Source: Solwaraspora sp. WMMA2056 (lineage in GTDB: Bacteria; Actinomycetota; Actinomycetes; Mycobacteriales; Micromonosporaceae). From it: 64,000 nt of DNA. Each line of letters begins with the position of its first letter. The first letter of the stretch is position 1. The position numbers and the translations under genes were made by a program. The stretch is taken from the NCBI RefSeq assembly GCF_030345095.1, contig NZ_CP128360.1, forward strand, positions 4,402,001-4,466,000, in the 5' to 3' direction. Of the stretch, positions 12,137-59,716 are shown in pieces. The notes beneath the pieces are model-generated. The model did not search any database, was not told the origin of the DNA, and saw only the letters and a list, made by a program, of their open reading frames with translations.

Positions 12137-12234
12137 AACCGTACGGCGACGGTGTTTCGTCTTTGGTCCCCGCGCCGCTACCGACCCGCCGACCCCGGCT
12201 GCTTGACTGCTGACCAGCGAAAGGGGTGCCGGGA

Positions 12235-13110: not shown

Positions 13111-13113
13111 CTG

Positions 13114-15368: not shown

Positions 15369-15373
15369 CGCCC

Positions 15374-31433: not shown

Positions 31434-31584
31434 CAGAGGTAGCCTTTCCATGAACCGTGCCGGTATCACACTGGAATAGTCCGATGACCAGCGGGTTGTC
31501 CAATCCGTCCATCGGAGACTGGGTGAATCCCCAGACAATCGCCGCCTTCTGGCCTGTCGCCGGGCCGCGGCGCAGGATGGCGCG

Positions 31585-38600: not shown

Positions 38601-38908
38601 ACCTCCACCTGCCCGCGCAGCACCTCCAGGGTCGCGGCCTCGGCGTCCTGACCCTGCAGGACCAGACCGGCCAGCTTGACCGCCTCGCCCAGCACCCGGA
38701 TCACGGGCCCGGTACGGGTGGTGATCCGCACCGAACCACGGCCGTCGGTGGCGGTGATGGTGACCACCGTGGTCACGGTCAGGCGTTCGTCGTACTGACC
38801 GGGTGCGACCGTGATCAGCGCGCCGGGTTGGGCCGCGCGCAGAGCATCGGAGATCGTGCGATGGCCCCCGGGGCGGGACGGGTCGACCGTCAGCACCTGG
38901 CGCGTCAC
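35636..38908 (-). CDS. Parallel beta-helix protein fused to tandem EccA/CbxX-type AAA+ ATPases
   Basis: A 1090-residue fusion. Residues 1 to about 520 are right-handed parallel beta-helix repeats of the pectate-lyase/NosD type, with the recurrent pattern (LTDCQVSDTRSHGVVVGD, VTVTDCETTRSGGHGLLAEE) about every 23 residues. They open with a DPSRPGGHRTISDALRAA cap. Two EccA/CbxX-type AAA+ domains follow. Walker A is GPPGTGKTT near residues 593 and 868, each followed by FIDEAYTL (Walker B), NPGLASRFSRTI with the arginine finger, and FGNxRxARRTF (sensor 2). EccA in ESX systems is a cytosolic ATPase that handles PE/PPE-type substrates. Here the TPR part of EccA appears to be replaced by the beta-helix. 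No signal peptide is seen. Confidence 0.85.
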   Translation of the reverse strand: MTRQVLTVDPSRPGGHRTISDALRAAQPGALITVAPGQYDERLTVTTVVTITATDGRGSVRITTRTGPVIRVLGEAVKLAGLVLQGQDAEAATLEVLRGQVEVDDCEVAGAGWTAVLAANQGAVAMRGCRVVNPEGAGVVDTSGAGSVLEDSVVEHVGTSALVIAERGDPVVRRCVLRDARGNGICVNGQGRGLIEDCEVSATDKPAIALEQQCTTRIRRTTVRDTDVGIYVTSKSRVTLTDCQVSDTRSHGVVVGDVSDPVVDGLRVDRPGGYGICVVEQARGTFSRCEVTEARMDGLFVKGAAGPVLTDLTVRRAGGCGVAVLERANPQLHRLTVERGTGAAVRVDDSATPLLRDCQLTGTDGPGLLIEGAGQGRVEGGEITEVGADGVRVAGTAHPRLTAVTIRDAAQHGVSVGGRARVTVTDCETTRSGGHGLLAEEQAQLVADRSRSLRNRRHGVQVGGQARASLTGCTVSENSGDGVRVDSAEPVTLTDCQLTGNRGAGLREAVGAARVSADNVVDRDNDSGTVAGADGGGDHGDVADGSPLRQLQAMVGLPTVKRQLTSLVDLNRMAQRRRAAGLPVPPTSRHVIFAGPPGTGKTTVARLYGGILAELGVLRSGHLVEVGRGDLVAQVIGGTAIKTTDVFTTALGGVLFIDEAYTLTAQESAGGHDFGREAVDTLVKLMEDHRDDVVVIAAGYSDDMRRFAASNPGLASRFSRTIEFENYTSDEMVTIVGQLAAEHRYRLGPGTAETLAAHFDRMPRDRTFGNGRTARRTFEEMVDRQAGRLAAQPEVDGDELTTLLPPDVADHHGATGQPDADGPVERLRGMIGLRGVKDAVEDLVNLLAAARMRRAAGLPAMSIDNHLVFAGPPGTGKTTVARLYGELLTSLGLLRTGQLVEVARADIVGRYIGQTAQLTQEAFDRARGGVLFIDEAYTLTSTGGAVADFGQEAVDTLLKLMEDHRDDVVVIAAGYSAQMRQFLSSNPGLASRFSRTITFDSYSDDELVTIVAQAAGADGYECAPATLDALRAHFAAVPRTETFGNARYARTLLQAMVTRQAGRLLARPGASVDEMRLLLPDDLPERVGVG

Positions 38909-39169: not shown

Positions 39170-39463
39170 GTGGCCGACATCCACCTGAACCACCCGGGCC
39201 TGAGCCAGGCCATCGACGACATGGTGCAGGCGACGGGACAGATGCGAAACGCCATGCAGCAGCTCATGCAGGGCCTCGTTCCGTTCGAGCAGACCTTCGA
39301 CGCCGACGGTTCCCGTCCGCAGTGGGACGCGTTCAAGCTGGCCGTGGCGCAGGCTGACGAGCAGATGCAGAACTCGTTCGGCAAGGGCGCGATGGCGCTG
39401 GGCGAGATGCAGAACATCCACATCGACTCCGACCGGCGCAGCACCAACATCCTGGGCGGCTGA
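39170..39463 (+). CDS. ESAT-6-like (WXG100-type) small secreted protein
   Basis: A 97-residue helical-hairpin protein without a signal peptide. The first helix has LSQAIDDMVQATGQMRNAMQQL. The turn contains DGSRPQWDAFKLAVAQAD, with Trp in the position of the WXG motif but lacking the Gly, and the second helix continues to GEMQNIHI. The size and layout match Esx proteins exported by type VII systems. GTG at 39,170 has AAGGAG upstream; a GTG 6 bases earlier overlaps that site. The stop overlaps the start of the YbaB-like gene (TGATGA). Confidence 0.75.
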   Translation: MADIHLNHPGLSQAIDDMVQATGQMRNAMQQLMQGLVPFEQTFDADGSRPQWDAFKLAVAQADEQMQNSFGKGAMALGEMQNIHIDSDRRSTNILGG

Positions 39464-39864
39464 TGACCTCCGCGTGGGACGCCCGGATCCAGCAGGGCAT
39501 GGCGGAGGTCCGCCGCTATCAGGAGGAGCTGGCGCAGATGCAGCGGTCGCTGCAGGAGCGCAGCGCCTCGGTGACCACTGCGGACCGGGCGCTGACAGTG
39601 GTCGTCGGCGCGCAGGGTGAGCTGAAGGAGATCGACTTTCACGGCGCCGCGTACCGGTCGATGGCCGGATCCGATCTGGCCAGAGCGATCCTCGGGGCCT
39701 ACCAACAGGCCCGGACGAAGATGACGGCCGAGACCGACCAGGTGGTGCGTTCGTTCGTCGAACGCGGCACCGGCATCCGGGACACGATGGTCGGCGACAA
39801 TCCTTTGGAAGATCTGCTCGGCCCGATCCGTCAGGCCGCCCGGGACATCGGCAAACTCGACTGA
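39463..39864 (+). CDS. YbaB/EbfC-like protein of type VII locus
   Basis: A 133-residue protein with the YbaB/EbfC layout: a long N-terminal helix (MAEVRRYQEELAQMQRSLQE), a short beta-hairpin (LTVVVGAQGELKEIDFHGAAY), and C-terminal helices (ARAILGAYQQARTKMTAET). Classic YbaB proteins bind DNA at nucleoids. Copies inside actinobacterial type VII loci are common and are more likely to work as partners of the Esx protein encoded just before, with which this gene overlaps. That role is inference. Confidence 0.75.
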   Translation: MTSAWDARIQQGMAEVRRYQEELAQMQRSLQERSASVTTADRALTVVVGAQGELKEIDFHGAAYRSMAGSDLARAILGAYQQARTKMTAETDQVVRSFVERGTGIRDTMVGDNPLEDLLGPIRQAARDIGKLD

Positions 39865-39880
39865 CCGGAGTCAGCCGGGT

Positions 39881-40504: not shown

Positions 40505-40541
40505 GCAGAAGGGCTGGTCCGGGCAGTACGCCGCCGGCCTG

Positions 40542-41288: not shown

Positions 41289-41461
41289 CCAGCGGGCGGA
41301 TCACTCCGTGGGCAGGGCCTGCTCGACGGGGTCTGCCAGGCCAAGTCTAGGGAAATGTCCATGGCGACAGCCGGCGGCGGTCTGCAGGGTTGACCATGCA
41401 GAGTTGTCCTAGCGCTGCCGGGTGGGCGTGCGGTGGCGCGGGGATTGCCGGGGGGAGTCGC

Positions 41462-41773
41462 GTGTCCGAGCTTGTAGTACCCAGCGATCTGCGGTTGCGG
41501 TTCGCCCGGTTCGGCCAGGCCGAGCAGGTGTTGGGGCGACTCGGTGAGACGATCGAGCAGATCCACGACCTCAATCTCGCGGGTGCGGGCAGCACCTCCG
41601 ACGAGATCGCGCAGACCTATCGGTCCAAGGTGGATGGCCCGACGGACAACCTGAAGGTCCTCGTCACGCGGGTCCGTGGGGTGCTGATGATGACCGACGA
41701 GGGTGGTCAGCAGGCCAGCGAAACGTTCGCCCAGGGTGAAGTGGAAGCAGGGAACCAGGGCCGGCGCTGGTGA
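41462..41773 (+). CDS. Small helical type VII-associated protein
   Basis: A 103-residue helical protein without signal peptide or membrane segment: LRLRFARFGQAEQVLGRLGE in helix one, then DEIAQTYRSKVDGPTDNLKV and LMMTDEGGQQASETF in helix two. Its size, helical hairpin character and position 26 bases before the giant protein gene fit an Esx-like partner or chaperone for that protein, which is inference. The GTG at 41,462 has GGGGGGAG upstream, and a possible -35 (TTGACC) lies near 41,389. Confidence 0.6.
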   Translation: MSELVVPSDLRLRFARFGQAEQVLGRLGETIEQIHDLNLAGAGSTSDEIAQTYRSKVDGPTDNLKVLVTRVRGVLMMTDEGGQQASETFAQGEVEAGNQGRRW

Positions 41774-41799: not shown

Positions 41800-44700
41800 G
41801 TGGCGATCCAGCCCTCCGAGGAGATCAACAACCTCTTCATGGTCCTCACCGGCTCGCGCATGCCGGACATCAACGAGGACATGCTGCGTACCGTGCAGGA
41901 CCTCTATCTCGGGGTGTCTCTCGACCTCGGTGAGCTGCAGGCCCATGTCGAGTTCCTGGTGGTCGGCGTCCGCAGGTCCTTCGACGGTCAGGCAGCCGAA
42001 GCCTTCGCCATGCACATGGAGCAGTTCGTCTCCGGTGACGTCTCGGTGCTGGAAGGAGCCGCCGAGCAGGCACGGGCACTCGCCGCGTTCGCCGGCGAGG
42101 TCGCCACCGAAGCCGAGTACATGAAACTCATGATCATCGCCGAGCTGATCGTGCTGCTCTTCGAGATCGCGATCGCCGTGGCGATGTCCTACGTCAGCTT
42201 CGGCCTGTCCACGGCCCTGCTGCCGATCAAGTTCGCCATCACCCGGATGCTGGTGCGGCTGGGGATGCAGCGCCTGATCATGCGGATCGTCTCGTCACCG
42301 CTGTTCAAGACCGTCGTCAACACCCCCTGGTTCAAGTCGTTCGTCAATTCGCCCTGGTTCAAGACCGCTGCCCAGGGCGTGTTCATCCACGGCCCGATCG
42401 GCGGCGTCATCGAACTCGGCATGTCGGGCGGGGTACAGGACTACCAGATCAAGAAGGGCCACCGGAAGGACGTCAACGGCAAACATCTGTCGTCGTCGTT
42501 CATCAGTGGCTACTTCTCGGAGATGTTCCAGCACTTCATCACCGCCAACCTGCTGCGCAAGCTCCTTCCGACACCCCGGCCGGGACGCGACGGACCGGGC
42601 AGGTTCGACCTCGACCCGCCTGGCGGCGGCCCCGGCCGGGGCGCAGGCGTCTTCACCGAAAAATCGCCGCCGCCGGTGGGGCGCGGCGGTGCCGGTGACG
42701 GTTCGCGGGAAAAGGGTGGCCCGGACACCGGCCCCGGCCGTACCGGCGGCCCGGACGGGCGGACCGCAGGTGGCCCGTCACCGACGCGCCACCTCCGGCT
42801 GCCGATCGTCCTCACCTCTGTCGCCATCGGCACCGCCATCGGCGAGACGATCGGCGAAGTGATATCCGGTGCCGCCGTGTACGGCAGGGTCGACATCGAC
42901 CCCGAGATGCCCGGCCTCGCCGCCGGCGCCGCAGCGATCCAGACCATCACCGAGCTGAAGCTGGCCCAGCCGCTGGGCAACTGGCTCGGCCGGTTGAGCT
43001 TCGGACCGCCGCCGGTCGTCACCTCCGGTCCCGGTGGTGTGCCGCCCGGTACCGCGCCGCCGACCAACTCCTCGCCACCGCCTGCCCAAGGCCAGCCGGC
43101 GACCGAGAAGCACGGGAGTACGCCGCCCGAGGCCCGGCCGGTCGACGCCCCGACCCCGGAGCGGGCCGACCGCCCCGGCCCGCTGGACCGCCCCGGCCCG
43201 CTGGACCGCCCCGGCCCGCTGGACCGCCCCGGACCGGAGCCGATCGCCTCCGGTCCGGTGCCCCGACCGCCGGTGGTCAGTGCCTCGGCCGTCGACCCCC
43301 TCGCTCCGGTGATCTCCCCGCCGTCGGTCGGCGCGGTGGTCCCCCCGCCGTCGGCCGGCCCGGTGCCGACCGTGCCGACCACGGTGACCTCGGACGTGAC
43401 GGTGTCGCCACCCACCCCGGTCGGGCCGGCACCGGCGGAAATCGCCCCTCCGCCGGAGCAGACGGCGGACGCGCGGCAACCGCGTGACAGCGCTGCCCCA
43501 CCCGTACCCGTCCAGCCAGAGCCGCCACCGCCACCGCCACCGTCGGCGCCGCCCGCCCCGCCACGGGTCGTGCCGCCGCCGACGCCCGCCGACGACCCCG
43601 CCTGGGCGGCGGCCCGTGCCGAGGCGAGCGTCGGCGTACGCGAACACTTCTGGGGTGATCCCGCGCACCAGCTCGGACCCGATGGCGACCAACGGCTCGT
43701 CGTGCGGTCCGGCTTCGACGTCCGCCGGGTGTTCCACGAGGGTCAGTGGTTCACCGACCTCGAGGTACGGGTGTGGATCAACGACACGACCGGGGTCGGG
43801 CCGGCTGGTATCGACGCGATCCACCAGCGGTTGGCGGCCGGGGTGCACGAGTACGTCAACAGCGCCGGCAACCTGATCGGCAACGGCGACCAGGTGCACG
43901 TCACCGTGCTGCGCGCCGACTCGCCGCAGAGCGCGCACCAGGTCGTCGACCTGGTCGAGCGGGACCAACAGATGCATCAGTACGCGTGGTGGGCCGACGC
44001 GCAGGGGGAGTACTACACCCACGAACTCATGCACCAACTGGGCCTGCGCGACGACCGGTCCGGCACCGGTTCGATCCCGGGCAGCCTGCTCGGTGACTTC
44101 ACCGCGCCCAAGCCCACCGAGGACGGTACGGCGACCCCGGCCGACAACTGGCACCTCTGGCGCGACGGCGGGCTGCGACAGCGTCACCTGGACCTGCTCG
44201 AGCGGCTCATCGGCCCGGTCGGCACCGACGGCGGCTACCACGGCGTGGACCGGCCGGTCCGGCCGGTCGCCAACGAACACGCCCCCCGGGCACCGGGCCA
44301 GACGTCGGCCGGCCCGCACCGGCCGGCGACGACGTCGAACGACACCACCCCGGTCGTCGGGCGGGCAGGGCCGGGCCGCCAGCGTCCGGAGGTGCCGACG
44401 GATGCTGGTCCAGAGGTGTCGACCGTGCCACAGCGGCCTGTGACGACCAGCGACGCCGAGTCTGACAGCGTTTCGGACCTCGGAGGGGACGACCTCGACG
44501 CCGCCGGTCGGGCCAGTGACCACGGCGACGCGGACCGCGCGGTCAGGCTCCCGGTACCGCTGATGTCGAGTGACCTACCAGTGGCTGGTGACGACGAGCG
44601 CAGCGGACCGGAGCGCTCGACCGAACCGGCCGTCGAAGGACCGTACGACTTTCCGGACGACCTGCCGCTGGCCCACCTCTTCGCTGAGCCACCGCCTGGT

Positions 44701-47700
44701 CCGTACGACTTCTCGGACGACCTCAATCTGGCCGAGCTGTTCGACGAACCAGATCCTGGTCCGTACGACTTTCCGGACGACCTGAATCTGGCCGAGCTGT
44801 TCACCGAACCTCCGGTCCTGCCCTGGTACACCGGCCCGCAGTACGGCGGGGCGCTCGGTCAGATGTACGCCTACCAGGCGGGACCGCCTGCCGGCCAGCC
44901 GGTGGAGAACCTTGTCGGTGAGTTGCTGCAGGACCTGGTGTCCGATTCGACATCCGCAATCTTCACTGCCGGTGAGCGGGACGCCGTCCGGCGTGCGGCC
45001 CGCGAGGCGCTGACCGACCTGTACACCCCGCCAGCGTCGGCGGGCGGGGCTACGGACGGCTCACCGGACCCGTTCATCGACGACGAGTACAGCGAATTTC
45101 TCGAAAAATGGGACCAGGTCCTCGTTCGGGGGATCACCGTCGAGGCCGCCGGCCGGCTGGTCTGGATCCGGCCGGTCGTCACCCACGGACGGCCGCACCA
45201 GCGGACCCGCACCGGACCTGTCCCGTACAAGGTCGTTTTCGGCTCCGGGTCGGCGAACACCTCCCAGGACCGCGAATCCAACCAGGGGCTTCCGGCGCCG
45301 ATCGAGCTGATGCTGGTCGGACTCACCGGCTTCGCCAAGCGGGTCAGCCGGTTGATCTTCAACTTCCCGGTCAAGCTGGAGGGGACGTACGCGACACCTC
45401 AGTCGCAGAACCGGACCCTGGTCACCGGTCGGCAGATGTTCGTCAAGAAGACGACGATGTTCGACGCCGGACTGCGCTTCGAGGTGTACGCCGACGGGCG
45501 GCGCTTCGGGACCACCGCCGACCTGCCGCCGTCGCGCAGTGGTCTCGTGGTCGTCGTTCCCCAGCAGTACACCAGCCGGGACAACGGATGGCCGGTCGAC
45601 ACCGAGAAGTCGCCACCGCAGCGGCAGGAGGAGCACCGGCCGACCCGGGCCCGGCCGGTGCTCAACGCCATCGGTCTGACCCCGCTGATCCTGCAGTGGC
45701 ACCGACAACTGGCGGGCAGCAAGTTGACGCCGCAGCAGCGGGTCGGCGTCGCCACTGTCGGCACCGCGCAACTGCTCAACGAGCGGAGCCTGATCAACCG
45801 CAGTACGCACCTGATGTCCGGCGGGGTGCGCACCGACGCGCTGGCGGTCGACGGGGTCACGGGCAGTCTGAAGCTGACCGTCGAGCCGCTCTGGGTGCAG
45901 TACATCGGGTCGGCGCCCGAGGTCGAGGTGCGCGACGACATGAGCGTGGTGATCAGCCTGAGCGAGGGGGTGAGCGCCTCCAGCGGGCTGGCCTTCGATC
46001 CGTCGTTCAACGCGATCAGCCTGGTGCACCCGGCCACGTCGCCGGTCGGCGATACCGGCCAGCGGGTGACCGGGACGCTCGGTGTCGAGGGCAAGATCTC
46101 CAGCGGCGAGAGCATGGCCCTCGACCTGAGTAGCGACGTGTCCAACCATGTGGTGCTGGTCCGCCGTGCCGATCAGGCCCGGTACCACGTGCAGTACCGG
46201 GCCGTCCTGACGACCGAGCTGGACAACTTCACGATTCCGCCAGTCGGCCGCAGCGGGATCCCCGCCGAGCTCGGCGTCGCCGTACCGGACCGACGGCGCT
46301 TCGAGCGGGCCTTCACCGGTGGGGCGCTGTCCGACGGGATTCAGCACCAGGCGCGTAGGCCGCCGGCAGCCTTGCCCGTGCCGCAGGGCAATCAGCGGAC
46401 GCTCCTGAATCAACTGCTTGGTCTGACGGTACCGCCAGGGACTCCGCGAGCCGGATGGACTCCGCAGCGGCGCACCGCTGCGACGGCACCGGTGGCGATG
46501 CCGCACCATCGCGGCCGCCGGATCACCGCGCCGACGGCGAACGAGTCGCTGGCGCTGGCGACCCGCCGCGGCACCGGCTGGGGGGTGCCGGTGTCACTGC
46601 CCGGTTCCGAGGTGGTGGTGCTCACCATCGAGCATGCGCTGAAGTTCCTCGGCGGCGTGAAAACGCTCGACCGTGACACCAACCGGACGATCAGCCGGCT
46701 GAGCCGTCCCGCGCTGGAAGCCGACCTCAACCGGCACCTGGTCGGTGACCCGTTCACCGTCAAGGTCAATGGCAAGAAGTACGACATCATGCTGACGGTC
46801 TACCTGGAGGATCACCTCGACAGCAGCCGGTATCCGATGAGCGTCAACACCCGGACGATCACCTCGTCCGGCCACTCCAGCACGACGGGCAACGAGCTGA
46901 GCTGGGGCTTCGTCGTCGCCGGCGGGTTGGCGATTCCGATGACCAGCAACAGCCGGGCCGGCCTGCCGGTCAGCCGGGAACAGGGCTGGTCCAGCGGACA
47001 CAGCGACACCTGGTCGGTCGCGGTCGAGTCGTACCGTCGGACCGAGACCACCGGTGACGTGATCGACAACGGCTACCGTGCGGTGTACCTGCTGGTCGTT
47101 CGGGAAGCGAAGGCCGGTGCCCTCCGCCACAATTGGACCTTTGGCGCGCCGGCCGGCATCGTGACGCCGGTCGAGCATCTGCCGGCCACCCCGCTCACCC
47201 TCGACCAGGTGAACCAGGCGAACACCGTCACCGCTGGTGACACCGTCGGAACACAGTGGTCGGCGCTCCGGGAGGACGTCGACTCGGTCGACTTTGTTCG
47301 GTTCGACCTGTACGGCGTCAACACCGTCGAGACCGCCTTCGTCGCCATTCCGGAGGCGGTCGTCTTTGCCGCGCACCTCTACCGGCAGACCACCGGAAAG
47401 TCCCAGGTTTGGTTCGACGATCCGTTGAACTGGCCGCGGGAGCTGTGGCAGATCGGCATCCCCAACCACCTGAACGCCCATTTCGGTGAACTCACCGACG
47501 GTCGTGGCTGGATCATCTCGCTGGACGAGGGCCTCACCTCGCACATGGTGCTGATCGTCCGCGCCCGGGTGGTGCCGCCCGGCGCCGGCCGTATCTCTGG
47601 ATCCGTGGAGATCGAGCACTATCTCAAGCGCGCCGGTAAGCGCGAACGAGGGTCTGAGAAGGGCTCCCACGTCACGTACGGGTTCGCCCCGTCGGGCACC

Positions 47701-50700
47701 TACCTGGCCCCCGACCCGAGCGGCGACGACGAGGCCGCGATCGGCCGGGTCGACGTGGAACTCGCCGGTCCCAGCAAGAAGGGGTCCATCGGCCAGGAGA
47801 ATTCCGACAGCGTCGGAAGTGCCGACATCAGCCGCGCCACGTACGGCGGTGACAAAGGGATCTACCAGGGTGACGTGCTGCTGGAGTTGTCGATCGTCGA
47901 GTGGAACGACCTGAAGGACTTCTTCACCCCGGACCGGCCGGGTGCCCCGGCGAGCACCACCCGGACGGGGTACCTGAAGGTGCCGAGCGGGCTCGATTTC
48001 ATGATGCCGGTCGAGACCGCCCGCGACCTGAGTCTGCCGCTGCCCACGCCGGCGGCCGCAACGGCGGCTCCGCCGCCGGGGACCGCGCCGCCGGTGACGC
48101 CGCTGCCGGCGGTGGCGCCCCTGCACGTGGACCCGGACCTGGCCCAGGCGATGAGCCACCCGGAACGGTTGCAGGCCGACGGGGTTCTGACCTTCATCGA
48201 GACGACGATGCGGGAGCAGGGCCTGATCCCGGCCGGGGACCGGCACACGACACTACGCCGGGCCGTCCGCAGCCAGTTCTCCTCCAGGTCACTGGAGAGT
48301 CAGGAGTTCGCGCTGCGCCGCACCGGTGTCCGAGGGCTGTTCGTCGTTCCCGGTCCGTTCCGGAATCTGCGGCTGATGCAGATCAAGGTCAAGGGACGCT
48401 TCGTCGGGGAGCCGACGTCGAGCGGCAACCGCCAGGACGTCGACCTGCTGCTGCGCGCCGAGGCGCTGGACGGCTCGTCCCGCTCCGACAGCAAGGGCGA
48501 CGAGTGGTCCTGGACCGTCGTCAACGTGAAAGGGTATGGAAAACCGACGTCCGCCACCGACGCGGGCGCGTCCGGCGGTGTCGCCTACTCCCAGGAGAAC
48601 GAGTCGGACGTCGGCATGTCCCGCGACGGCAAGGACATCTTCCGGATCGGGATCAAGGGTGGGTCGACCCAGTTCGTGCAGCCGATGGAATTCGAGGTGT
48701 GGATCGGCCTGACCAATCACAAGCCGTACTGGATGCAGTTGATCTCCTCGGCGATCCGGGAATCCTTCTTCCTCACCAACTCGCTCTACGCCGGTGGTGA
48801 GCAGTGGGCCCGACAGGTGTGGTTCGACAACCGGTTCATCGAGTGGGACTGGGAGGTCAGCACCCCCGAAGCGTTGACCGGTACGATGAAACTGCTGGTA
48901 CCGATGGCGCTCACCGAGTCCGCAGACCAGCGGGGGACCTGGGTTTTCACGACCACTGGGCGGCCTGCCGGTTTCCCCGCCGCACCGCCGGTGCGATGGA
49001 GCCCCCGGCCGGCGGCCCGTCCACGGGCCAACCGGGACCTGCTCGCCGACCCGACCCTGCAACCCCGCTTCGCGAAGATCGCCAATGTGGTGCAGACGTA
49101 CGCTGGCCTGGTCAACGCGTCGACGCGACTGCCGCCATCGGCGGTCGACGACGGCAAGGTCCCCGGGCTGCCGTGGCACAGCGAGGTGCAGTTGTCGCTC
49201 GACGACCACGCCGACGACTCCTCGATGCAGGTCCGCTTGCCTGAGGTGTTCGGCGGTGGATACCGGATCCCGGGCACCGACCTCACCGTGACCGTGGACG
49301 TCAAGGCTGTCCAGTACTACCGGTCGCCGACCGGTGACCCGCTGACCATGCGGGGAAAGGGTCGCCGGTACGGGCAGAACGAGACCGCGCCGAGCGTCGG
49401 GCACTCCCGTAGCTCCGGCACCACGGTGACGGTCGGTCCGTCGGGGCGCAGTAACGTCGCGGAGGGCGTCCGGCTCGGTACCGACGCGCCGTTCACCGGT
49501 GGCATGGGCCATGAGACCGGCGGGGAGACGTCCATCGCGGACGTCTCCGAGCGCAACGTGGAAGCTGCGCGGGACTACCACCTTTACCGGTACGACGTGA
49601 CGGTCTACCTGACCGGCCCGGCCGGGACGCTGGCCATCGACGTCCCGGGCGGTCTCCTCGGCTGGTCGGCGAGTGCGCCCACACGACTGCCCACGGACGT
49701 TCCGCTGCCGCCGGGCAGCGACGTCACGGTGGACCCGGAGTCGGGCGATGAGTCGAGCATCTCCGAAGTCGACGACGATCCCGACTCTGACGAGGAGTCG
49801 GGTCCTGGCGACGAGGGCGAGCCGGGTCCTGACGACGAGTCAGACTCTGACGACGAGTCGGAGGGTGACCCAGTCATCGCTGTCGTGCAGCCTCAGGTGC
49901 AGTCGGGCGGGCCCGCCGGTAGGACACCGCCCGCCGGTGCGACCTCGACCGCACCGCCGACGACGCCGGCCGGGGCCCCGGCACCGGGTGACGCACGAGG
50001 CGCCGGACGCGAAGCAGCCGGGGCCGCGATGGAGCATGATCCGATCTTCGCGGCGCTGACCCCGTCGTCGGTACCCGTCGGCACGGCACCGGCCACGCCG
50101 GGCGACGTCACGCCGCGCACCCCCGGACCGGCCGAGCTGACCCGTGGGGCCGACCGGCGCTGGTACCTCGACGGCCAGGAGGTGCTGGGCGTTCGACTCG
50201 ACGGCAACCGTACGGGGATCGCGCTGCTGGACGACGCGGACCTGGACCAGTTCTCGCCGGAGGACTTCCTGCCGCCGGGCGACATGCCGGTGGTGGTCGT
50301 GCACGCGGACGGAACCCGCACGACGGTCCCGGTGCGGGGTGCGGACGGCCGGACCCGGCAGGTACCGGTGACACCGGGGCAGTTGGCGAGGATGACCGCA
50401 CCGCTGGGCAACCGGTCGGGCCCCGTCGCGCTGATCACCTGCGGCGTCGGTGTCACCGACGGCGGGTTCGTGGCCGACTACGCGACCGCCCTGAACGCCG
50501 ACATCCTGGCACCGGTCGCCGCCCTGCGGATCGGATCGGAGACCTCGCCGCACGCGCCGCTGCAGGTGCCGGTGTCACCGGAGGATTCGGCAGGTGGCCG
50601 GCCCTGGCGGCTGTTCACCCCGGAGGATCTTGGCGACGAGGGCTGGGACACCCTCAACGACGGGGTCGACTTCGACGGCTTCCGAGCGGTCGACGGGCCT

Positions 50701-52815
50701 GGCGACGACGACAGCGGGATCGTGCTGGGCTCGGGTCCGGCGTCGTACGGCTATCCGGGCCAGAGCATCGACCCCGGCGGCCCATCGAGCGGATACGGCG
50801 TCGCGTCCGCTGGGCAACCGACAGCCGGCTCGACGATCGACACGGCCTGGGATCTGGACATGCCACCGTCGATGTCCGACGTCCCGCAGTGGATCCGCGA
50901 TCGGATCGCACAGGGGAAGTTCCCGGTGCCGTTCCTGACCGACGACGCGATGGACCCGGCAGCGTCGAAGGTCCGCTGGGGGGTCGAGATCGAGTTCGTG
51001 CTGCCGGCGAACGACCGCGACGACGAGGGAGCGTCCGGAAGCGTCGACGATCGCCTCGTGGCGATCGGCGCGCAGCTGCAGGCGGCCGGACTGATCCGGT
51101 CCGACGAGCCGGAGGACCCGCACAGCCCGCTGCGGCCCGGTGAGTGGTCGTTCCAGCTGGACGACACCGTCGACGGCGAGATCATCTCGCCGGTACTGAC
51201 CTCGTCGCCACAGACCTGGTCGACCCTGCTGACCATTGAGCAGATTCTCCGCGCCGCCGGTGCGACGGTGCGGGTCCGGGACGTGGTGACGGTGCTCGAC
51301 GAGGAGACCGACACGCGGAGCCCGGATCCCGGCGGGGCCACGATCATCCGGGAATCGGGCGGCCACGTCCACGTCGGTGGCGGCTTCCTCGCCCGGCACG
51401 CCGGCGCGCCCGGATATGCGGCGTTGGCCAGCCTGTACCACCAGCACGAGGAGGTGCTCTACCGGCTGGCGGGCGACCCCCGCAGCGAGGTCGAGCACGG
51501 GTTCACCGAGCGCAAACCGGGCTGGGATCCGACCATGCCGTACCCCGGGGACGCCGAGGCGGCGATCGACGCGCACCGCGACCGCAAGCTGGGCCTCAGC
51601 TTCAACCAGGTCAGTCTCACCGACTACGACCATCCGGAGTGGCGACTGTTCCGCGGATCGCTGCTGGCGGCGGTGATCCAGACCCAGGTCAAGATCGCGG
51701 TCGGCATGCAGTTGGCCGCGCTGCAGCTGGCGCGTAGTGGTGCGGCACCGCCGGTCGCCGCGTCGGGCGTCGGCAACCTGCGCCGCTCCGGGTCCACGCC
51801 GTCGACGTACGGCGGATGGTCGATCCATGACGACGTCGACGCCACCGACTTCGCCCCGCTGTGGGTCTTCCTCGGCACCGTTTTCTCCCGCCCGCAGGAC
51901 ATGCTGCAGGCGGCGGCGCTGTTCTTCCTCAACGACTGGGCGCCACCGCCGGACGGTTCGCCCGCCACGCGTTTCCCGTACCTGGCGCAGTTGTCGGCCC
52001 CGGTGAACTGGCCGCTGGGGCAGCTCGACGTCGACACCGCCAGTTACCTGCTCGACCACTCCCCACCGGCGGCCAGCGGGGCCGAACCGTCGGCGCACGA
52101 CGTGTCGCGTGTCGAGGTCGACGGTGACTGGCAGGCCGGTGGCGTCCCCGCCCGGCTGCGGACCCTTCCTGACGGCACCGGGTACGCCCTGATCAGTGAC
52201 GGTGCCCCCACCGCCGGGTTGCCGCCGCCCGGGTCGGTTCCGAGCGCCATGGCGGGCAGCGTCCCGGTGGTGGTCCGCCTCGACGGCGGTACCGTCCGGC
52301 TCGATGGCCTGCAGGCCGGCCAGCCCTACCAGGTGCGGGTCGGGGCACAGCAGGCCGCCGGCATGGTCAGCGACGCGGTCGACTACCGCGCGCCGCTGCG
52401 CCTGGTCCCGGTCGGCACCGGCAAGCTCACCGACGACTACGTCCGCAGCTTCGCCGAGAACCGGCCGCCGCCGCAGCTGCGGGGGACACCACAGACCACG
52501 GTCGGGGACGTCTACGTACCGGCGAGTCACCTGTTCAACCCGCCGGCCGGCGCGGTCACCGACCCGACCGCGCCGTCCTGGGTGCGGTTCTACCAGCCGT
52601 ACCCGGGTGGAGGGCTGACGACCGAGATCGTCGTGGACGCGCCGGCGGTGACCACCTCCGGATTCGTGCTCGTCGGCGGTGTGCAGTACTACCGCGATGA
52701 GGCCGGTTCCTGGTACCTGCCGGGGCCGGCCGACCCGAACGATCCCGGCACTCGACAGTGGTACCAGGTGCCCGCTCCGTCGACCGTGCAGAGCCCGGCC
52801 TACTGGCCGGCGTAG
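41800..52815 (+). CDS. Giant type VII-associated multidomain protein with metalloprotease motif and C-terminal amidoligase-like domain
   Basis: A 3671-residue protein, intact over 11 kb. Residues 1-105 are helical and WXG100/CpnT-N-like. Hydrophobic helices lie near 108-155 and 334-362, followed by a Pro-rich linker with 18-bp repeats. Residues about 600-810 hold HELMHQLGLRD (H741, E742, H745, G748, D751), the HExxHxxGxxD zinc motif of snapalysin/metzincin-type proteases. A triple YDF repeat (947-1006) precedes about 1600 residues of large beta-rich repeats with paired VWFD blocks, and a D/E-rich linker follows near 2650. Residues about 2760-2960 have VVVVHADG (H2835) and VALITCGVG (C2881), reminiscent of clan CD cysteine peptidases. 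Residues about 3055-3320 have WGVEIEF (3060), SGGHVHVGG (H3189, H3191) and PEWRLFRGSL, the pattern of GS-fold amidoligases. Export through the nearby ESX system is inferred. Confidence 0.7.
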   Translation: MAIQPSEEINNLFMVLTGSRMPDINEDMLRTVQDLYLGVSLDLGELQAHVEFLVVGVRRSFDGQAAEAFAMHMEQFVSGDVSVLEGAAEQARALAAFAGEVATEAEYMKLMIIAELIVLLFEIAIAVAMSYVSFGLSTALLPIKFAITRMLVRLGMQRLIMRIVSSPLFKTVVNTPWFKSFVNSPWFKTAAQGVFIHGPIGGVIELGMSGGVQDYQIKKGHRKDVNGKHLSSSFISGYFSEMFQHFITANLLRKLLPTPRPGRDGPGRFDLDPPGGGPGRGAGVFTEKSPPPVGRGGAGDGSREKGGPDTGPGRTGGPDGRTAGGPSPTRHLRLPIVLTSVAIGTAIGETIGEVISGAAVYGRVDIDPEMPGLAAGAAAIQTITELKLAQPLGNWLGRLSFGPPPVVTSGPGGVPPGTAPPTNSSPPPAQGQPATEKHGSTPPEARPVDAPTPERADRPGPLDRPGPLDRPGPLDRPGPEPIASGPVPRPPVVSASAVDPLAPVISPPSVGAVVPPPSAGPVPTVPTTVTSDVTVSPPTPVGPAPAEIAPPPEQTADARQPRDSAAPPVPVQPEPPPPPPPSAPPAPPRVVPPPTPADDPAWAAARAEASVGVREHFWGDPAHQLGPDGDQRLVVRSGFDVRRVFHEGQWFTDLEVRVWINDTTGVGPAGIDAIHQRLAAGVHEYVNSAGNLIGNGDQVHVTVLRADSPQSAHQVVDLVERDQQMHQYAWWADAQGEYYTHELMHQLGLRDDRSGTGSIPGSLLGDFTAPKPTEDGTATPADNWHLWRDGGLRQRHLDLLERLIGPVGTDGGYHGVDRPVRPVANEHAPRAPGQTSAGPHRPATTSNDTTPVVGRAGPGRQRPEVPTDAGPEVSTVPQRPVTTSDAESDSVSDLGGDDLDAAGRASDHGDADRAVRLPVPLMSSDLPVAGDDERSGPERSTEPAVEGPYDFPDDLPLAHLFAEPPPGPYDFSDDLNLAELFDEPDPGPYDFPDDLNLAELFTEPPVLPWYTGPQYGGALGQMYAYQAGPPAGQPVENLVGELLQDLVSDSTSAIFTAGERDAVRRAAREALTDLYTPPASAGGATDGSPDPFIDDEYSEFLEKWDQVLVRGITVEAAGRLVWIRPVVTHGRPHQRTRTGPVPYKVVFGSGSANTSQDRESNQGLPAPIELMLVGLTGFAKRVSRLIFNFPVKLEGTYATPQSQNRTLVTGRQMFVKKTTMFDAGLRFEVYADGRRFGTTADLPPSRSGLVVVVPQQYTSRDNGWPVDTEKSPPQRQEEHRPTRARPVLNAIGLTPLILQWHRQLAGSKLTPQQRVGVATVGTAQLLNERSLINRSTHLMSGGVRTDALAVDGVTGSLKLTVEPLWVQYIGSAPEVEVRDDMSVVISLSEGVSASSGLAFDPSFNAISLVHPATSPVGDTGQRVTGTLGVEGKISSGESMALDLSSDVSNHVVLVRRADQARYHVQYRAVLTTELDNFTIPPVGRSGIPAELGVAVPDRRRFERAFTGGALSDGIQHQARRPPAALPVPQGNQRTLLNQLLGLTVPPGTPRAGWTPQRRTAATAPVAMPHHRGRRITAPTANESLALATRRGTGWGVPVSLPGSEVVVLTIEHALKFLGGVKTLDRDTNRTISRLSRPALEADLNRHLVGDPFTVKVNGKKYDIMLTVYLEDHLDSSRYPMSVNTRTITSSGHSSTTGNELSWGFVVAGGLAIPMTSNSRAGLPVSREQGWSSGHSDTWSVAVESYRRTETTGDVIDNGYRAVYLLVVREAKAGALRHNWTFGAPAGIVTPVEHLPATPLTLDQVNQANTVTAGDTVGTQWSALREDVDSVDFVRFDLYGVNTVETAFVAIPEAVVFAAHLYRQTTGKSQVWFDDPLNWPRELWQIGIPNHLNAHFGELTDGRGWIISLDEGLTSHMVLIVRARVVPPGAGRISGSVEIEHYLKRAGKRERGSEKGSHVTYGFAPSGTYLAPDPSGDDEAAIGRVDVELAGPSKKGSIGQENSDSVGSADISRATYGGDKGIYQGDVLLELSIVEWNDLKDFFTPDRPGAPASTTRTGYLKVPSGLDFMMPVETARDLSLPLPTPAAATAAPPPGTAPPVTPLPAVAPLHVDPDLAQAMSHPERLQADGVLTFIETTMREQGLIPAGDRHTTLRRAVRSQFSSRSLESQEFALRRTGVRGLFVVPGPFRNLRLMQIKVKGRFVGEPTSSGNRQDVDLLLRAEALDGSSRSDSKGDEWSWTVVNVKGYGKPTSATDAGASGGVAYSQENESDVGMSRDGKDIFRIGIKGGSTQFVQPMEFEVWIGLTNHKPYWMQLISSAIRESFFLTNSLYAGGEQWARQVWFDNRFIEWDWEVSTPEALTGTMKLLVPMALTESADQRGTWVFTTTGRPAGFPAAPPVRWSPRPAARPRANRDLLADPTLQPRFAKIANVVQTYAGLVNASTRLPPSAVDDGKVPGLPWHSEVQLSLDDHADDSSMQVRLPEVFGGGYRIPGTDLTVTVDVKAVQYYRSPTGDPLTMRGKGRRYGQNETAPSVGHSRSSGTTVTVGPSGRSNVAEGVRLGTDAPFTGGMGHETGGETSIADVSERNVEAARDYHLYRYDVTVYLTGPAGTLAIDVPGGLLGWSASAPTRLPTDVPLPPGSDVTVDPESGDESSISEVDDDPDSDEESGPGDEGEPGPDDESDSDDESEGDPVIAVVQPQVQSGGPAGRTPPAGATSTAPPTTPAGAPAPGDARGAGREAAGAAMEHDPIFAALTPSSVPVGTAPATPGDVTPRTPGPAELTRGADRRWYLDGQEVLGVRLDGNRTGIALLDDADLDQFSPEDFLPPGDMPVVVVHADGTRTTVPVRGADGRTRQVPVTPGQLARMTAPLGNRSGPVALITCGVGVTDGGFVADYATALNADILAPVAALRIGSETSPHAPLQVPVSPEDSAGGRPWRLFTPEDLGDEGWDTLNDGVDFDGFRAVDGPGDDDSGIVLGSGPASYGYPGQSIDPGGPSSGYGVASAGQPTAGSTIDTAWDLDMPPSMSDVPQWIRDRIAQGKFPVPFLTDDAMDPAASKVRWGVEIEFVLPANDRDDEGASGSVDDRLVAIGAQLQAAGLIRSDEPEDPHSPLRPGEWSFQLDDTVDGEIISPVLTSSPQTWSTLLTIEQILRAAGATVRVRDVVTVLDEETDTRSPDPGGATIIRESGGHVHVGGGFLARHAGAPGYAALASLYHQHEEVLYRLAGDPRSEVEHGFTERKPGWDPTMPYPGDAEAAIDAHRDRKLGLSFNQVSLTDYDHPEWRLFRGSLLAAVIQTQVKIAVGMQLAALQLARSGAAPPVAASGVGNLRRSGSTPSTYGGWSIHDDVDATDFAPLWVFLGTVFSRPQDMLQAAALFFLNDWAPPPDGSPATRFPYLAQLSAPVNWPLGQLDVDTASYLLDHSPPAASGAEPSAHDVSRVEVDGDWQAGGVPARLRTLPDGTGYALISDGAPTAGLPPPGSVPSAMAGSVPVVVRLDGGTVRLDGLQAGQPYQVRVGAQQAAGMVSDAVDYRAPLRLVPVGTGKLTDDYVRSFAENRPPPQLRGTPQTTVGDVYVPASHLFNPPAGAVTDPTAPSWVRFYQPYPGGGLTTEIVVDAPAVTTSGFVLVGGVQYYRDEAGSWYLPGPADPNDPGTRQWYQVPAPSTVQSPAYWPA
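43168..43239 (+). repeat. Four 18-bp tandem coding repeats (Pro-rich linker)
   Basis: Three identical units GACCGCCCCGGCCCGCTG plus a fourth that differs at its end encode DRPGPL repeats in the Pro-rich linker of the giant protein. Near-identity at the DNA level indicates recent slippage expansion; copy number probably varies between strains. Confidence 0.9.
44638..44817 (+). repeat. Three 60-bp tandem coding repeats carrying YxxxD motifs
   Basis: Three exact-period units encode GPYDFxDDLxLAxLFxEPxP, with Tyr at residues 949, 969 and 989 of the giant protein. Each YDFPD or YDFSD fits the YxxxD/E pattern of type VII export signals, followed by an acidic amphipathic LxLAxLF stretch that looks like a short binding helix. 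Confidence 0.85.
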
Positions 52816-55462: not shown

Positions 55463-55641
55463 CAGGGCCCATCCATACCACGGCGGGTCCCGACCGGCAG
55501 GCCGTTGACGGTTAACAACTCGTGTCGAAACGGGACCGCTGCCGCGTTGGCTGAGGTAATCGGACACACCAGCTTGCCGTGCGCCTGATCCGTCCATACT
55601 GTCACCGGGGGGCTTCCATCCGCGCGAGGACGACATCGACG

Positions 55642-56229: not shown

Positions 56230-57667
56230 CCACGACCGGTACGGTGGCGGCATCCGTGCGGTGCGCCAAAGCGAGGATCGCCGCCAGCTGGTCGGGTGCG
56301 GGTTCCGCGACGAGTGTCACCGCCTCCGACGCGGAGACGTCGTCAACGAGCGCGGTCACGTCGGCAGGGTAACGACGACAGCCCTGCGGCAGGGCGGTGA
56401 CCCCGTCACCGACGACGGTCACCCCGGCTCCGGCGGCGAGCAGCCGGGTGGTGAGCAGCCGGGCCGCCCGGTGGCGGGCGGCGGTAGGGCCGGTGACGGC
56501 GAGCACGTCGGGTGCCTGCCGCAGGTCGATCCAGAACTGTCCGTCCGGGCCGACGCCTACCGGGATCGCCGTCGCGACCGGCGGCGCGGCGTGGTTCTGC
56601 CCGGCCGGCCACCACCCGTACGGGGTGCCGGCGCGCGGCCGACGGATGCCGGTGAGCCGCAGGACGGCCGGATCGTCGCCGACGCGCAACTCGACCTCGA
56701 GGTGCGGCAGCCGCCGTTCGTCGCCGGCCGGTGTGACCGGGTCCGTCGCTGTCGCTGTCGTGCCGGTCGGCGCCGTCGTCGTGACCACCAGCCCGGGTAC
56801 GGCCGCAGTCTCGGTCACCACGTCCGGGGCAACGACGTCCGGGGCTACCTCGTCCGGGGCGGCGGGTACCGGGTCGGCGACGGTCGCCGGCGTCGCGACG
56901 GTCGGCGGGTCACCGCTCGCAGCGACCACCGGCTGGATCGTCCTCGCCGGCGGTCGGTCGGGTTGCCGGGTCGTCGATGGCGCGGGTACGGCCGGCGGCC
57001 GGGCTGCCGACGGCGTCGTCGCGGTCGCCTGCCGACTCGTCGCGGTCGACGGCCGCGCCGGCCGCGCCGGCCGAGCCTGCCGGGCGAGCCGGCGGTTGCC
57101 GCCGCCTCGGCGCAGCACCAGGATCGCGAGCGCGAACAGCCCGACCGCCATCATCGCCGCCCCGCCGCGCAGCAGCAGCTCCGACTCGCGGTCGGGCTGA
57201 CGTACGGCGTCGGCGGGCGGCTGCCCCGAGACGATGGCCGGCGACCCGTCGGCCACCGGCAGCGGCCCGTACCGCACCCCCGGTCCCCGGGCGTCGTCGG
57301 GCAGCACCAGCACCCAACCCGGCTCCAGGATCGTCGGATCGGTCAACTCTGCACCGCCGGGCTGTGGCCGCCCGACGTTCAGCTCGAAGATCTCCGGGTA
57401 GCGGCGGCCGTCGCCCAGGGTGCGTGCGGCGATGGCGAACAGGAACTCCCGTTCACCACCGGGGAGCTGATCGACGACGTAGTAGCGCACGTTCTGCCCG
57501 GCGGATGCGTCCTGGGTGGGGACGGGGCCGGGCGCCGGCGCGGCGACGGCCGGCCGGACCTCGCCCCACCCCAGCGGTACGGTCGCCGTCGCCACGCCCG
57601 CCGCGACGGCGACGATCAGGACCGCGAGCGTCGACAACGCGTGACGGACCTGTGACCGGTGCCGCAT
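56180..57667 (-). CDS. Membrane protein with LysM-like domain
   Basis: A 495-residue protein. An N-terminal signal/anchor helix (about 11-33) is followed by a short external LysM-like domain at about 58-140: RYYVVDQLPGGEREFLFAIA, then YPEIFELNVGRPQPGGAELT, then EPGWVLVLPDDARGPGVRYG. A second membrane helix lies near 165-185, then a Pro/Thr/Ala-rich linker and a C-terminal domain (VGPDGQFWIDLRQAPDVLAV, then ARLLTTRLLAAGAGVTVVGD) of unknown fold. The same LysM-like domain occurs in the divergent mycosin. GGGGGTGGG precedes the ATG. A TGAACC-N16-CGTC promoter is placed 59 bp upstream. Its role is probably cell-wall anchoring of the secretion apparatus; that is inference. Confidence 0.65.
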   Translation of the reverse strand: MRHRSQVRHALSTLAVLIVAVAAGVATATVPLGWGEVRPAVAAPAPGPVPTQDASAGQNVRYYVVDQLPGGEREFLFAIAARTLGDGRRYPEIFELNVGRPQPGGAELTDPTILEPGWVLVLPDDARGPGVRYGPLPVADGSPAIVSGQPPADAVRQPDRESELLLRGGAAMMAVGLFALAILVLRRGGGNRRLARQARPARPARPSTATSRQATATTPSAARPPAVPAPSTTRQPDRPPARTIQPVVAASGDPPTVATPATVADPVPAAPDEVAPDVVAPDVVTETAAVPGLVVTTTAPTGTTATATDPVTPAGDERRLPHLEVELRVGDDPAVLRLTGIRRPRAGTPYGWWPAGQNHAAPPVATAIPVGVGPDGQFWIDLRQAPDVLAVTGPTAARHRAARLLTTRLLAAGAGVTVVGDGVTALPQGCRRYPADVTALVDDVSASEAVTLVAEPAPDQLAAILALAHRTDAATVPVVVTAGPPARWTLQMVDG

Positions 57668-57725
57668 GCCCACCCCCGCCGCTGGCGGGTGCACCCGCCA
57701 GCCATGAACGATCTGCCAACGCTGG

Positions 57726-57751
57726 GACGAAGCAGCGGGTGCAAAGGTTCA
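57726..57751 (-). promoter_or_regulatory. ECF-type promoter of LysM-like gene
   Basis: On the minus strand, TGAACC (57,751-57,746) is followed after exactly 16 bases by CGTC (57,729-57,726), about 59 bp before the ATG. This spacing and these hexamer cores are those of ECF sigma promoters; TGAACC is the -35 known for SigL of mycobacteria. It mirrors the promoter at 57,774. Confidence 0.65.
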
Positions 57752-57773
57752 CGATGCACTTCCCTAATGGTGG

Positions 57774-57799
57774 TGAACCTAGGACATCGCGCCGTCGTC
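57774..57799 (+). promoter_or_regulatory. ECF-type promoter of mycosin-like gene
   Basis: TGAACC (57,774-57,779), 16 bases, CGTC (57,796-57,799), 55 bp before the start codon. Together with the opposite promoter it forms the perfect inverted repeat AGGTTCAC (57,745-57,752) / GTGAACCT (57,773-57,780), so the two -35 elements face away from a common 20-bp centre. Confidence 0.65.
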
Positions 57800-57853
57800 C
57801 ATGCCGTAGCGGATCGCCGGATTCCCGGCACCGACAAGGGAGGGAACGATCTG

Positions 57854-59716
57854 ATGAGGATGCGCGGCGTCCGCGTACCGGTCGCCTTCGGCCTGATCCT
57901 GGCCGTGATGGCCGCAGGCCCGCTCGGCGTCGCCGGACCGGCCGGTGCCGTAGGTGGTGCCGTCGCCGCCGCACCGGTGCACCGGTCGGCCCCGGAACCC
58001 GGCCCGACCGGCAGCTACCAGCTGTACTACGTGGTGGCGGCGAGTGTCGACGGGCGGCCGGAGAATCTGTGGCTCATCGCCAGCCGGCTGCTGGGCGACG
58101 CCGACCGGGCCACCGACATCTTCGACCTCAACGCCGGCCGGCCGCAGCCGACCGGCGGTGCCCTGGTGGACCCGAGTGTGCTGCGGGCCGGTTGGGAGCT
58201 GGTCCTGCCCTGGGACGCGGTCGGCGAGGGCGTGCGGTACGGCCATCTCACCCCCGTCACCGCACCGGCGAATCCGACGCCGCGTCCGTCGACCCCGACC
58301 GGCGGCGGTCCGGCCCCGTCGTCACCGCAGCCCGGGGCCAGCGGCCAACCGGGTGGCGCCCAGCCGGGTGCCGGCCAGCCGACCGGCACCGCCGCGCCGT
58401 CGCCCACCGCGACCCCGACTCCGACCCCGTCGGCCTCGCCGTCGGCCGGTGCGAGCCGTCCGCCGGGTACGGTGGCCGCCGGCGCGCTGCCCTGGTTGAC
58501 CTCGGGCTGCCAGGCGAGCCTGATCGACTGGGGGCAGCCGTGGCCCGCGCTCGACGAGGTGTGGTCACGCAGTCGGGGTGCCGGGGTGACCGTCGCAGTG
58601 GTCGACTCCGGGGTGGACGCGACGCTGCCGGAGCTGACCGGTCGGGTGACCGCCGGGGCGGACATCGTGACCGGCGCCGGGCGGGCCGGCACCGACTGTC
58701 TCGGTACGGGGACCGCCATGGCCGGGATCGTCGCCGCCGACCTCAGTGCCGGATCCCGCAGCGGGGTGGCACCGGAGGCGGGTGTGCTACCGGTACGGCT
58801 GGTCGACACCGCCGGCCAGGCCCGGATTCCCGACCAGGTGACGGCGATTGAGGTCGCCCTGTCCACCGGCGCCGAGGTGGTGGTGGTCGGCGGCTACGTC
58901 GACCTGTCCGACCCGCAGGTCACCGACGCGATCGCCACCGCCGCCGAGCACGACAGCGTGGTGGTCGTGCCGGCCAGGGTCGGTGCCGACCTGGAACCGG
59001 CCCCCGGCCCGCCGGACGCGGTGCTGCGGGTCGCCGCCGTCGACGATCAGGGTGCGCCGGTGGCCGAGCATCCGGCCGGCGAGGTCGATGTGGTGGCACC
59101 GGCGGTGACCGGCGTCGAACCGCGTGCGGCGACGGTGTACGCCGCGGCGTACGTGGCCGGTGTCGCGGCGCTGCTGCGCGCCGCCCAGCCGGAGCTGACC
59201 GCCGCCGAGGTGGTGCAGCGGTTGAGCGACACCGCGGAGCTGGCGTCCGCGGCCGAGCGTGACGACCAGCTGGGCTGGGGCAGCGTCGATCCGGTCGCGG
59301 CGGTCAGTGTGGCGACCCAGGCCCGGGCCGGTGGTGCCGGCGACGGCGGGACCGGTGGTGCCTCCGGTTGGCCGCTGGCGGTGGCGTCGGTGGTGCTGGT
59401 CATCCTCGGTGCCCTGTTCTGGGCCCGGCGCCGACTCGGCGCACCGGCGGACGACCTCGCTGACGGCACCGTCGACGCGGAGGCCGGCGCTGTCACCGGC
59501 GACAAGGTCACCGCCGGTTCGGCGCGGTCGGCCGCCGGCGGCACCGACGAGGTGACCGTTGCCGGCCCGGCGGGTGCGGTACCGGACGGCTCGACCGCCG
59601 ACCCCGACGGTGCCGGTCCGACGGCCCCGACGACGTCGGCGAAGACCCAGGTGACCACGGTGCTGGATCTGTCCGCAGGCCGGCCCGCCCCCGGGGTGCC
59701 GCCACCGCCGGGCTGA
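57854..59716 (+). CDS. Mycosin-like S8 protease homologue with lost catalytic residues and a LysM-like domain
   Basis: A 620-residue protein: signal peptide (residues 1 to about 32), a LysM-like domain (YQLYYVVAASVDGRPENLWL, then DIFDLNAGRPQPTGGALVDP), a Pro/Thr linker, a subtilisin-fold domain (about 215-450), and a membrane helix near 500 (LAVASVVLVILGALFWA). This matches mycosins (MycP) of ESX systems apart from the inserted domain. The catalytic Asp is present (VAVVDSGVD, D251). The His motif DCxGHGTxVAG reads DCLGTGTAMAG (Thr285), and the Ser motif GTSxA reads ATVYAAAYVAG (Val428). The oxyanion Asn region is also altered (VVVVPARVG). It therefore cannot be an active serine protease. GGGAGGG precedes the ATG. 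Confidence 0.85.
   Translation: MRMRGVRVPVAFGLILAVMAAGPLGVAGPAGAVGGAVAAAPVHRSAPEPGPTGSYQLYYVVAASVDGRPENLWLIASRLLGDADRATDIFDLNAGRPQPTGGALVDPSVLRAGWELVLPWDAVGEGVRYGHLTPVTAPANPTPRPSTPTGGGPAPSSPQPGASGQPGGAQPGAGQPTGTAAPSPTATPTPTPSASPSAGASRPPGTVAAGALPWLTSGCQASLIDWGQPWPALDEVWSRSRGAGVTVAVVDSGVDATLPELTGRVTAGADIVTGAGRAGTDCLGTGTAMAGIVAADLSAGSRSGVAPEAGVLPVRLVDTAGQARIPDQVTAIEVALSTGAEVVVVGGYVDLSDPQVTDAIATAAEHDSVVVVPARVGADLEPAPGPPDAVLRVAAVDDQGAPVAEHPAGEVDVVAPAVTGVEPRAATVYAAAYVAGVAALLRAAQPELTAAEVVQRLSDTAELASAAERDDQLGWGSVDPVAAVSVATQARAGGAGDGGTGGASGWPLAVASVVLVILGALFWARRRLGAPADDLADGTVDAEAGAVTGDKVTAGSARSAAGGTDEVTVAGPAGAVPDGSTADPDGAGPTAPTTSAKTQVTTVLDLSAGRPAPGVPPPPG

Follow-up and report, generated by a model that had tools for sequence, protein, structure and literature searches.

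The stretch of DNA considered in this study (the window) comprises 64,000 nucleotides from Solwaraspora sp. WMMA2056 (contig NZ_CP128360.1, positions 4,402,001 to 4,466,000), and it contains on the plus strand, at 41800..52815, an open reading frame (ORF) that starts with GTG and encodes a type VII secretion-associated protein of 3671 amino acids. The frame is uninterrupted, and its GC content at third codon positions (GC3), 0.88, is of the coding type. I am concerned mainly with a domain late in this giant protein, residues 3024-3400 (50869..51999), which homology, motifs and predicted fold identify as an amidoligase with the fold of glutamine synthetase (GS). An earlier reading of the letters alone (the sequence-only reading) had put a domain of this kind at 50900..51790; the location was right, and the actual span is wider.

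The motifs on which that reading relied lie where it had placed them, and the four residues it named (Glu3063, Glu3065, His3189 and His3191) are correctly numbered. In order along the plus strand, and by motif and alignment, they are WGVEIEF from residue 3060 (50977..50997), with Glu3063 and Glu3065 (ExE), ESGGHVHVGG from residue 3185 (51352..51381), with His3189 and His3191 (HxH), and PEWRLFRGSL from residue 3279 (51634..51663), with Glu3280 and Arg3282 (ExR). Alignment adds Glu3127 (51178..51180), within the motif GEIISP, as a third conserved acidic position. Relatives in the alignment share 26-32% identity, and Glu3063, Glu3065, His3189 and His3191 are invariant or nearly so.

To place the domain in a family, residues 3024-3419 were compared by tblastn to plasmid sequences. 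Eight records matched, one of them insignificantly (E 0.3). The other seven, from Streptomyces and Nonomuraea, are 24-29% identical over 88-89% of the query (E 2e-14 to 3e-23), and five of these are annotated as amidoligase family proteins (28-29%, E 2e-21 to 2e-22). The top record (E 3e-23) is annotated as hypothetical, yet it lies above the cut-off of the Amidoligase_2 family (PF12224), as do all five plasmid relatives scanned (29 to 48 bits, against a cut-off of 22). PF12224 is also found, at E <= 0.01, in 29 of the 30 members of an alignment (A3) made up of loci from genome and viral contigs, locus L050 and the window (L039 was excluded, as were two additional copies from L038). The sole miss is the window sequence itself, which does not reach the PF12224 gathering score as a whole protein, as a domain alone or in the genome scan. 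Searches of NCBIfam with the whole protein and with the domain, and of PHROGs with the domain alone, gave no match, and searches of PDB chains with the domain alone and with the A3 profile gave best E-values of 0.37 and 0.5, both insignificant. An hhalign comparison of A3 to a GCS2-type protein encoded in the same genome gave a probability of 7.6% with catalytic motifs unaligned, a comparison made uninformative by its single-sequence template.

The predicted three-dimensional structure of the domain is a GS fold, and the conserved ExE, E, H and ExR residues fall on predicted strands of the model (37-44, 103-106, 164-169 and 257-262). These acidic, histidine and arginine positions are presumably the counterparts of the metal ligands of GS. 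Thus the resemblance to GS-fold COOH-NH2 ligases that the sequence-only reading proposed is borne out, and of the checks it suggested, the predicted fold came out GS-like and the relatives match PF12224, while the direct profile match failed. Since the window sequence misses PF12224 and its significant relatives match it, the domain is a relative of Amidoligase_2 too divergent for the Pfam model to detect, and I stop short of counting it as an outright member. It has ExE, GE-SP, HxH and ExR in the same order as the family and 28-32% identity to plasmid members, but it differs in lacking a PF12224 match of its own, in residing inside a giant protein of exported type, and in about 25 extra residues before HxH, which it shares with its counterpart in genome G003 (genomes and loci of the comparison are denoted by G and L numbers). 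A chance match of motifs or a different fold was considered and rejected in light of the tblastn relatives, the PF12224-matching alignment members and the GS-like predicted fold. The case for fold and family placement is strong, and the residue pattern ExE...E...HxH...ExR predicts that residues 3024-3400 are catalytically intact.

The remainder of the giant protein has few recognized parts. Residues 21-150 (41860..42249) match WXG100_2 (PF25547, E 1.6e-11, 44.8 bits, cut-off 27), a domain that includes a hydrophobic segment at 110-143 and is also recognized at the N-terminus of the giants in G003 and G085. Residues from about 612 to 857 (43633..44370) have relatives at 33-38% identity in L040 and L019 and resemble a domain of a Streptomyces plasmid protein; I name them a putative metallopeptidase on the basis of the motif HELMHQLG (HExxH) at 741-748. 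This region has no Pfam match, and its profile found a single unconvincing match amongst PDB chains (E 0.021). Beyond the ligase domain lies a C-terminal region (52000..52812); a protein of G185 matches the giant at 45% from residue 3011 through residue 3603. Calculated against G003, the ratio of nonsynonymous to synonymous substitution rates (dN/dS) is lowest in WXG100_2 (0.19), followed by the metallopeptidase (0.24), and reaches 0.495 in the amidoligase, which is thus under constraint, though more loosely than the other two.

Upstream of the ligase is a putative cysteine-peptidase-like domain, residues 2801-2960 (50200..50679), in which His2835 (50302-50304) and Cys2881 (50440-50442) are invariant in all five aligned copies (alignment A4). 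Cys2881 is the sole cysteine of the 3671-residue protein, where about 32 would be expected at the rate of 12 other genes in the window (P about 6e-13), and the G003 orthologue likewise has one cysteine, at the same location. Of 12 giant-protein pieces, nine are strongly depleted in cysteine (0 to 0.5 per 1000 residues), the count including L020, L023-L025, L028, L029, L032, L040 and L048; the values for L035, L019 and L027 are 1.0 to 2.2. Among the few cysteines that remain in giants, many have surroundings like LLSCGTG or NCVFAS, recalling peptidases or deamidases. The histidine and cysteine of the window domain lie in VVVHADG and VALITCGVG, hydrophobic contexts that may be strands and would then agree with features of clan CD. 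No Peptidase C80 match appeared in the five A4 members scanned, and two other cysteine-containing stretches of the G085 giant gave weak C80 matches (E 0.17 and 0.3), far below the cut-off. The profile of the domain found no match in PDB chains and no relatives in the viral contigs and plasmids searched. The domain may be a releasing peptidase, placed as it is where polymorphic toxins carry such peptidases, but profile support for this is very weak. The G085 giant has the same domain upstream of two of its three intact amidoligase copies.

The gene lies beside those of an ESX (type VII) system, in agreement with the type VII association named in the sequence-only reading, whose WXG100-like N-terminus is recognized as WXG100_2. 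On the minus strand are eccB (28637..30073; PF05108, E 1.1e-79) and eccD (30078..31649; PF19053 and PF08817), followed on the plus strand by eccC (31585..35586), with three FtsK/SpoIIIE stretches (PF01580). Next, on the minus strand (35636..38908), is a protein in which a NosD/right-handed beta-helix region is joined to two tandem AAA domains, probably EccA-like. Plus-strand genes complete the locus: a YbaB/EbfC-family gene (39463..39864; PF02575), a small ORF immediately preceding the giant gene (41390..41773), conserved in G003 and with no Pfam match, and, beyond the giant, a subtilase that is probably mycosin-like (57659..59716; PF00082). Synteny holds in G003, with EccC at 96-99% identity and the amidoligase domain at 87%. 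In the window the YbaB gene is separated from the small ORF by about 1.5 kb (39865-41390) that G003 lacks, the spacing there being about 60 bp; by eye, the minus strand of this interval looks like the remnant of a LuxR-type regulator. Elsewhere in the window, at 12226-20559, Pfam recognizes genes of purine (urate/allantoin) catabolism (OHCU decarboxylase/HIUase, uricase, amidohydrolase, malate synthase and allantoicase).

Proximity to ESX genes extends beyond the window. An EccC-type gene lies within 65 kb, a limit chosen post hoc, of 21 of 27 amidoligase or amidoligase-like frames listed by hand, in 19 of 21 genomes. For the 14 rows on large contigs the combined chance of such proximity is 3e-6, a figure to be read with the knowledge that related genomes are not independent. 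The frames beyond the limit are those of G033 and G472 (on contigs without EccC), one of G566 and three of G183 (83 kb, 95 kb and 3.2 Mb).

By profile matches at E <= 0.001, and with the window's own genome included each time, relatives of the domain occur in 20 genomes among 354 of the family, in 20 among 397 of the order and in 2 among 396 of the phylum. A scan of genome contigs with the window domain alone found no match, and one with profile A1 found 19 loci, all actinobacterial. The proteins range from short stand-alone forms to open frames of up to 27,324 residues. Giant single frames with amidoligase or amidoligase-like domains were seen in G566 (L090 and L105), G190 (L058), G241 (L066), G663 (L094) and G610 (L096), with lengths of 27,324, 17,469, 16,824, 16,056 and 15,988 residues, respectively. 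At least seven of the eight key residues are kept in 60 of 101 aligned domain pieces and fewer in 41, the degenerate giant copies described below among them; in this set some loci are nearly identical, the window counts twice, and gaps in partial matches are scored as missing residues. All eight are present in the window copy and in its nearest relatives (G003, G183 and G185), copies that are 44-87% identical. In a FastTree tree of 69 sequences the window groups with these three (support 1.0). A single origin of the exported amidoligases was considered and rejected, as the tree is weak in its deep branches and exported copies are intermingled with stand-alone ones; L060, L066 and L077 are degenerate giant copies wrongly labelled there as solo, and no count was taken from the tree. 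Amidoligase-like domains without most of the catalytic residues, repeated in some giants, were noted at L023, L060, L064, L068, L074 and L075.

The plasmid relatives offer some hints regarding chemistry. A gamma-glutamylcyclotransferase gene lies near the amidoligase genes on three of the five plasmids read, all from Streptomyces with three amidoligase genes each. On these linear plasmids, L015, L016 and L017, the amidoligase genes adjoin DUF4417 and ParB-domain genes, the first of the three in L015 being annotated as hypothetical. One plasmid protein annotated as a toxin glutamine deamidase combines Gln_amidase (27.1 bits, cut-off 24.1) with a stretch that matches the window domain and scores 16.7 bits to PF12224, below the cut-off of 22. 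In the giant of G185, Gln_amidase scores 23.9 bits and narrowly misses the cut-off.

I consider it somewhat better than an even bet that the giant is a type VII (ESX) effector with a GS-fold amidoligase module that ligates in a recipient cell. An effector role is the best reading of the protein, unproven, and I infer its export and release and the target and activity of its ligase as follows. The neighboring ESX system would export the protein, which would get inside a recipient cell, and there the His2835/Cys2881 domain would cleave the chain and release the ligase. With ATP and Mg2+ from the cell, the ligase would activate a carboxylate and join it to an amine through an amide or isopeptide bond, so that a target would be modified or crosslinked; the carboxylate would most likely belong to the side chain of a glutamate or to a small gamma-glutamyl donor. 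Its mechanism would then be like that of the actin crosslinking domain of MARTX toxins, taken up below. The recipient cytosol would be a site of action where ATP is present.

A number of observations weigh against this. The domain is internal rather than C-terminal in several giants, and the giants of G005, G012, G004, G122 and G183 and a second protein of G003 carry degenerate copies in which the histidines and nearly all acidic residues are replaced, one or both arginines often being kept. Of the other 25 amidoligase copies examined, just two (both in G085) have upstream of them a cysteine in a context like that of Cys2881, hence the pairing of the two domains is not general; the cysteine domain has no convincing match in Pfam or NCBIfam, and AlphaFold, given that domain alone, produced an unusable model (predicted local distance difference test score, pLDDT, of 41.8). 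WXG100_2 went undetected in four further stretches presumed to be the N-termini of giants (G185, G183, G033 and G018). Two of the five plasmids (those of Nonomuraea and NBC_01455) list no gamma-glutamylcyclotransferase, and the very presence of stand-alone homologues on plasmids suggests that the family also works intracellularly, without export. The dN/dS of the ligase domain indicates fairly fast evolution relative to G003. Finally, no immunity gene is evident downstream of the giant among the GC3-typical ORFs to which a search by GC3 is confined; the next gene on the same strand by that criterion encodes a sigma factor, at 55579. Such an absence is compatible with a target that is non-kin or eukaryotic, or with a non-toxic function: effectors aimed at non-kin need no immunity gene.

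Some of these same facts feed the alternatives. The ligase may work in the cytoplasm of the producer, before or instead of export, by forming an internal isopeptide bond, by modifying partner proteins or the ESX apparatus, or at the inner face of the membrane if the protein is anchored there. ATP is available in that compartment, the stand-alone plasmid homologues of Streptomyces and Nonomuraea presumably reside in it, the hydrophobic segment at 110-143 is a strong one, and WXG100_2 is unrecognized in four other giants. I nonetheless judge this unlikely, because the carrier has a WXG100_2 N-terminus, a putative metallopeptidase and the cysteine domain, and sits beside ESX genes; strong depletion of cysteine in most giant pieces suits an exported protein, and the relative fused to a Gln_amidase toxin domain suits an effector. 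It is improbable that the domain is a pseudo-enzyme or structural spacer, as the degenerate copies in sister giants and the loose constraint could lead one to think. All eight residues are spared in the window, G003, G183 and G185 copies despite 44-87% identity, a result hardly expected from random decay. Improbable, too, is a GS-fold enzyme of some other chemistry, whether a deamidase or hydrolase like Dop or an amino-acid or polyamine ligase with small molecules rather than proteins as substrates, given that the nearest sequence relatives are Amidoligase_2 proteins.

Few toxins are known to spend ATP on the formation of new covalent bonds. The GS-like case located in print is the actin crosslinking domain (ACD) of MARTX toxins, described as a distant GS-family ligase that uses ATP to form a glutamate-lysine bond between actin monomers (PMC2908040), and it is released into the cytosol by an autoprocessing cysteine protease (PMC2908040, PMC2900308). 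The sequence-only reading found an ATP-dependent ligase outside the cell puzzling, and delivery of ACD to the cytosol provides a published analogue (PMC2908040). An alternative answer comes from Sec-exported enzymes of Streptomyces, which use ATP added to spent medium (PMC12691689). ACD and the protein considered here are alike in placing a GS-family ligase within a very large secreted toxin or toxin-like chain that has a cysteine protease or a candidate for one (PMC2908040, PMC2900308), but ACD has a known target, actin, and travels by type I secretion rather than type VII. The 50 structures listed for the fold of the ligase include no ACD chain, a result that leaves room for a shared fold, no direct comparison with ACD having been made.

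Nearer in phylogeny are the giant actinobacterial proteins described by Zhang et al. (2012; PMC3482391), with several toxin domains, metallopeptidase domains and caspase-like domains, the last usually just upstream of the toxin domain and likely releasing peptidases, though some caspase repeats are without catalytic residues. The window protein resembles them in origin, in size and in having a putative metallopeptidase and a putative cysteine peptidase upstream of a candidate toxin domain. Their toxin domains differ, being ADP-ribosyltransferase and MCF1-SHE, and the word amidoligase is absent from the portion of that text searched (300,000 of 354,187 characters). The CDC123 and R2K ligases of type VI secretion toxin loci, predicted peptide or amide ligases proposed to be effectors or auxiliary proteins (PMC4431377), are similar as ATP-dependent ligases with a proposed effector role but have the ATP-grasp fold and type VI associations, as opposed to a GS fold and type VII. 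In the open-licence literature, no type VII protein with an amidoligase domain is described in the titles and beginnings of abstracts among the matches listed. The ligase adds one more domain to the known class of giant toxin-like proteins of actinobacteria.

A broader proposal, doubtful as a whole, is that ESX delivers MARTX-like giants whose warhead, a GS-fold ligase, is freed by a cysteine peptidase. In sister proteins a glutamine deamidase on the same chain would make the glutamate that the ligase then amidates, and elsewhere the repeated, apparently dead ligase domains would serve as building blocks. Giants with such repeats have open frames of 4,575 to 14,668 residues, and the ligase copies in the frame of 27,324 residues are intact. 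If the giant of Solwaraspora is indeed an effector with an active ligase, then type VII secretion would extend GS-like, ATP-driven ligation chemistry to Gram-positive bacteria, a function would be assigned to giant proteins with few recognizable domains, and a protein modification detectable by mass spectrometry would be predicted.

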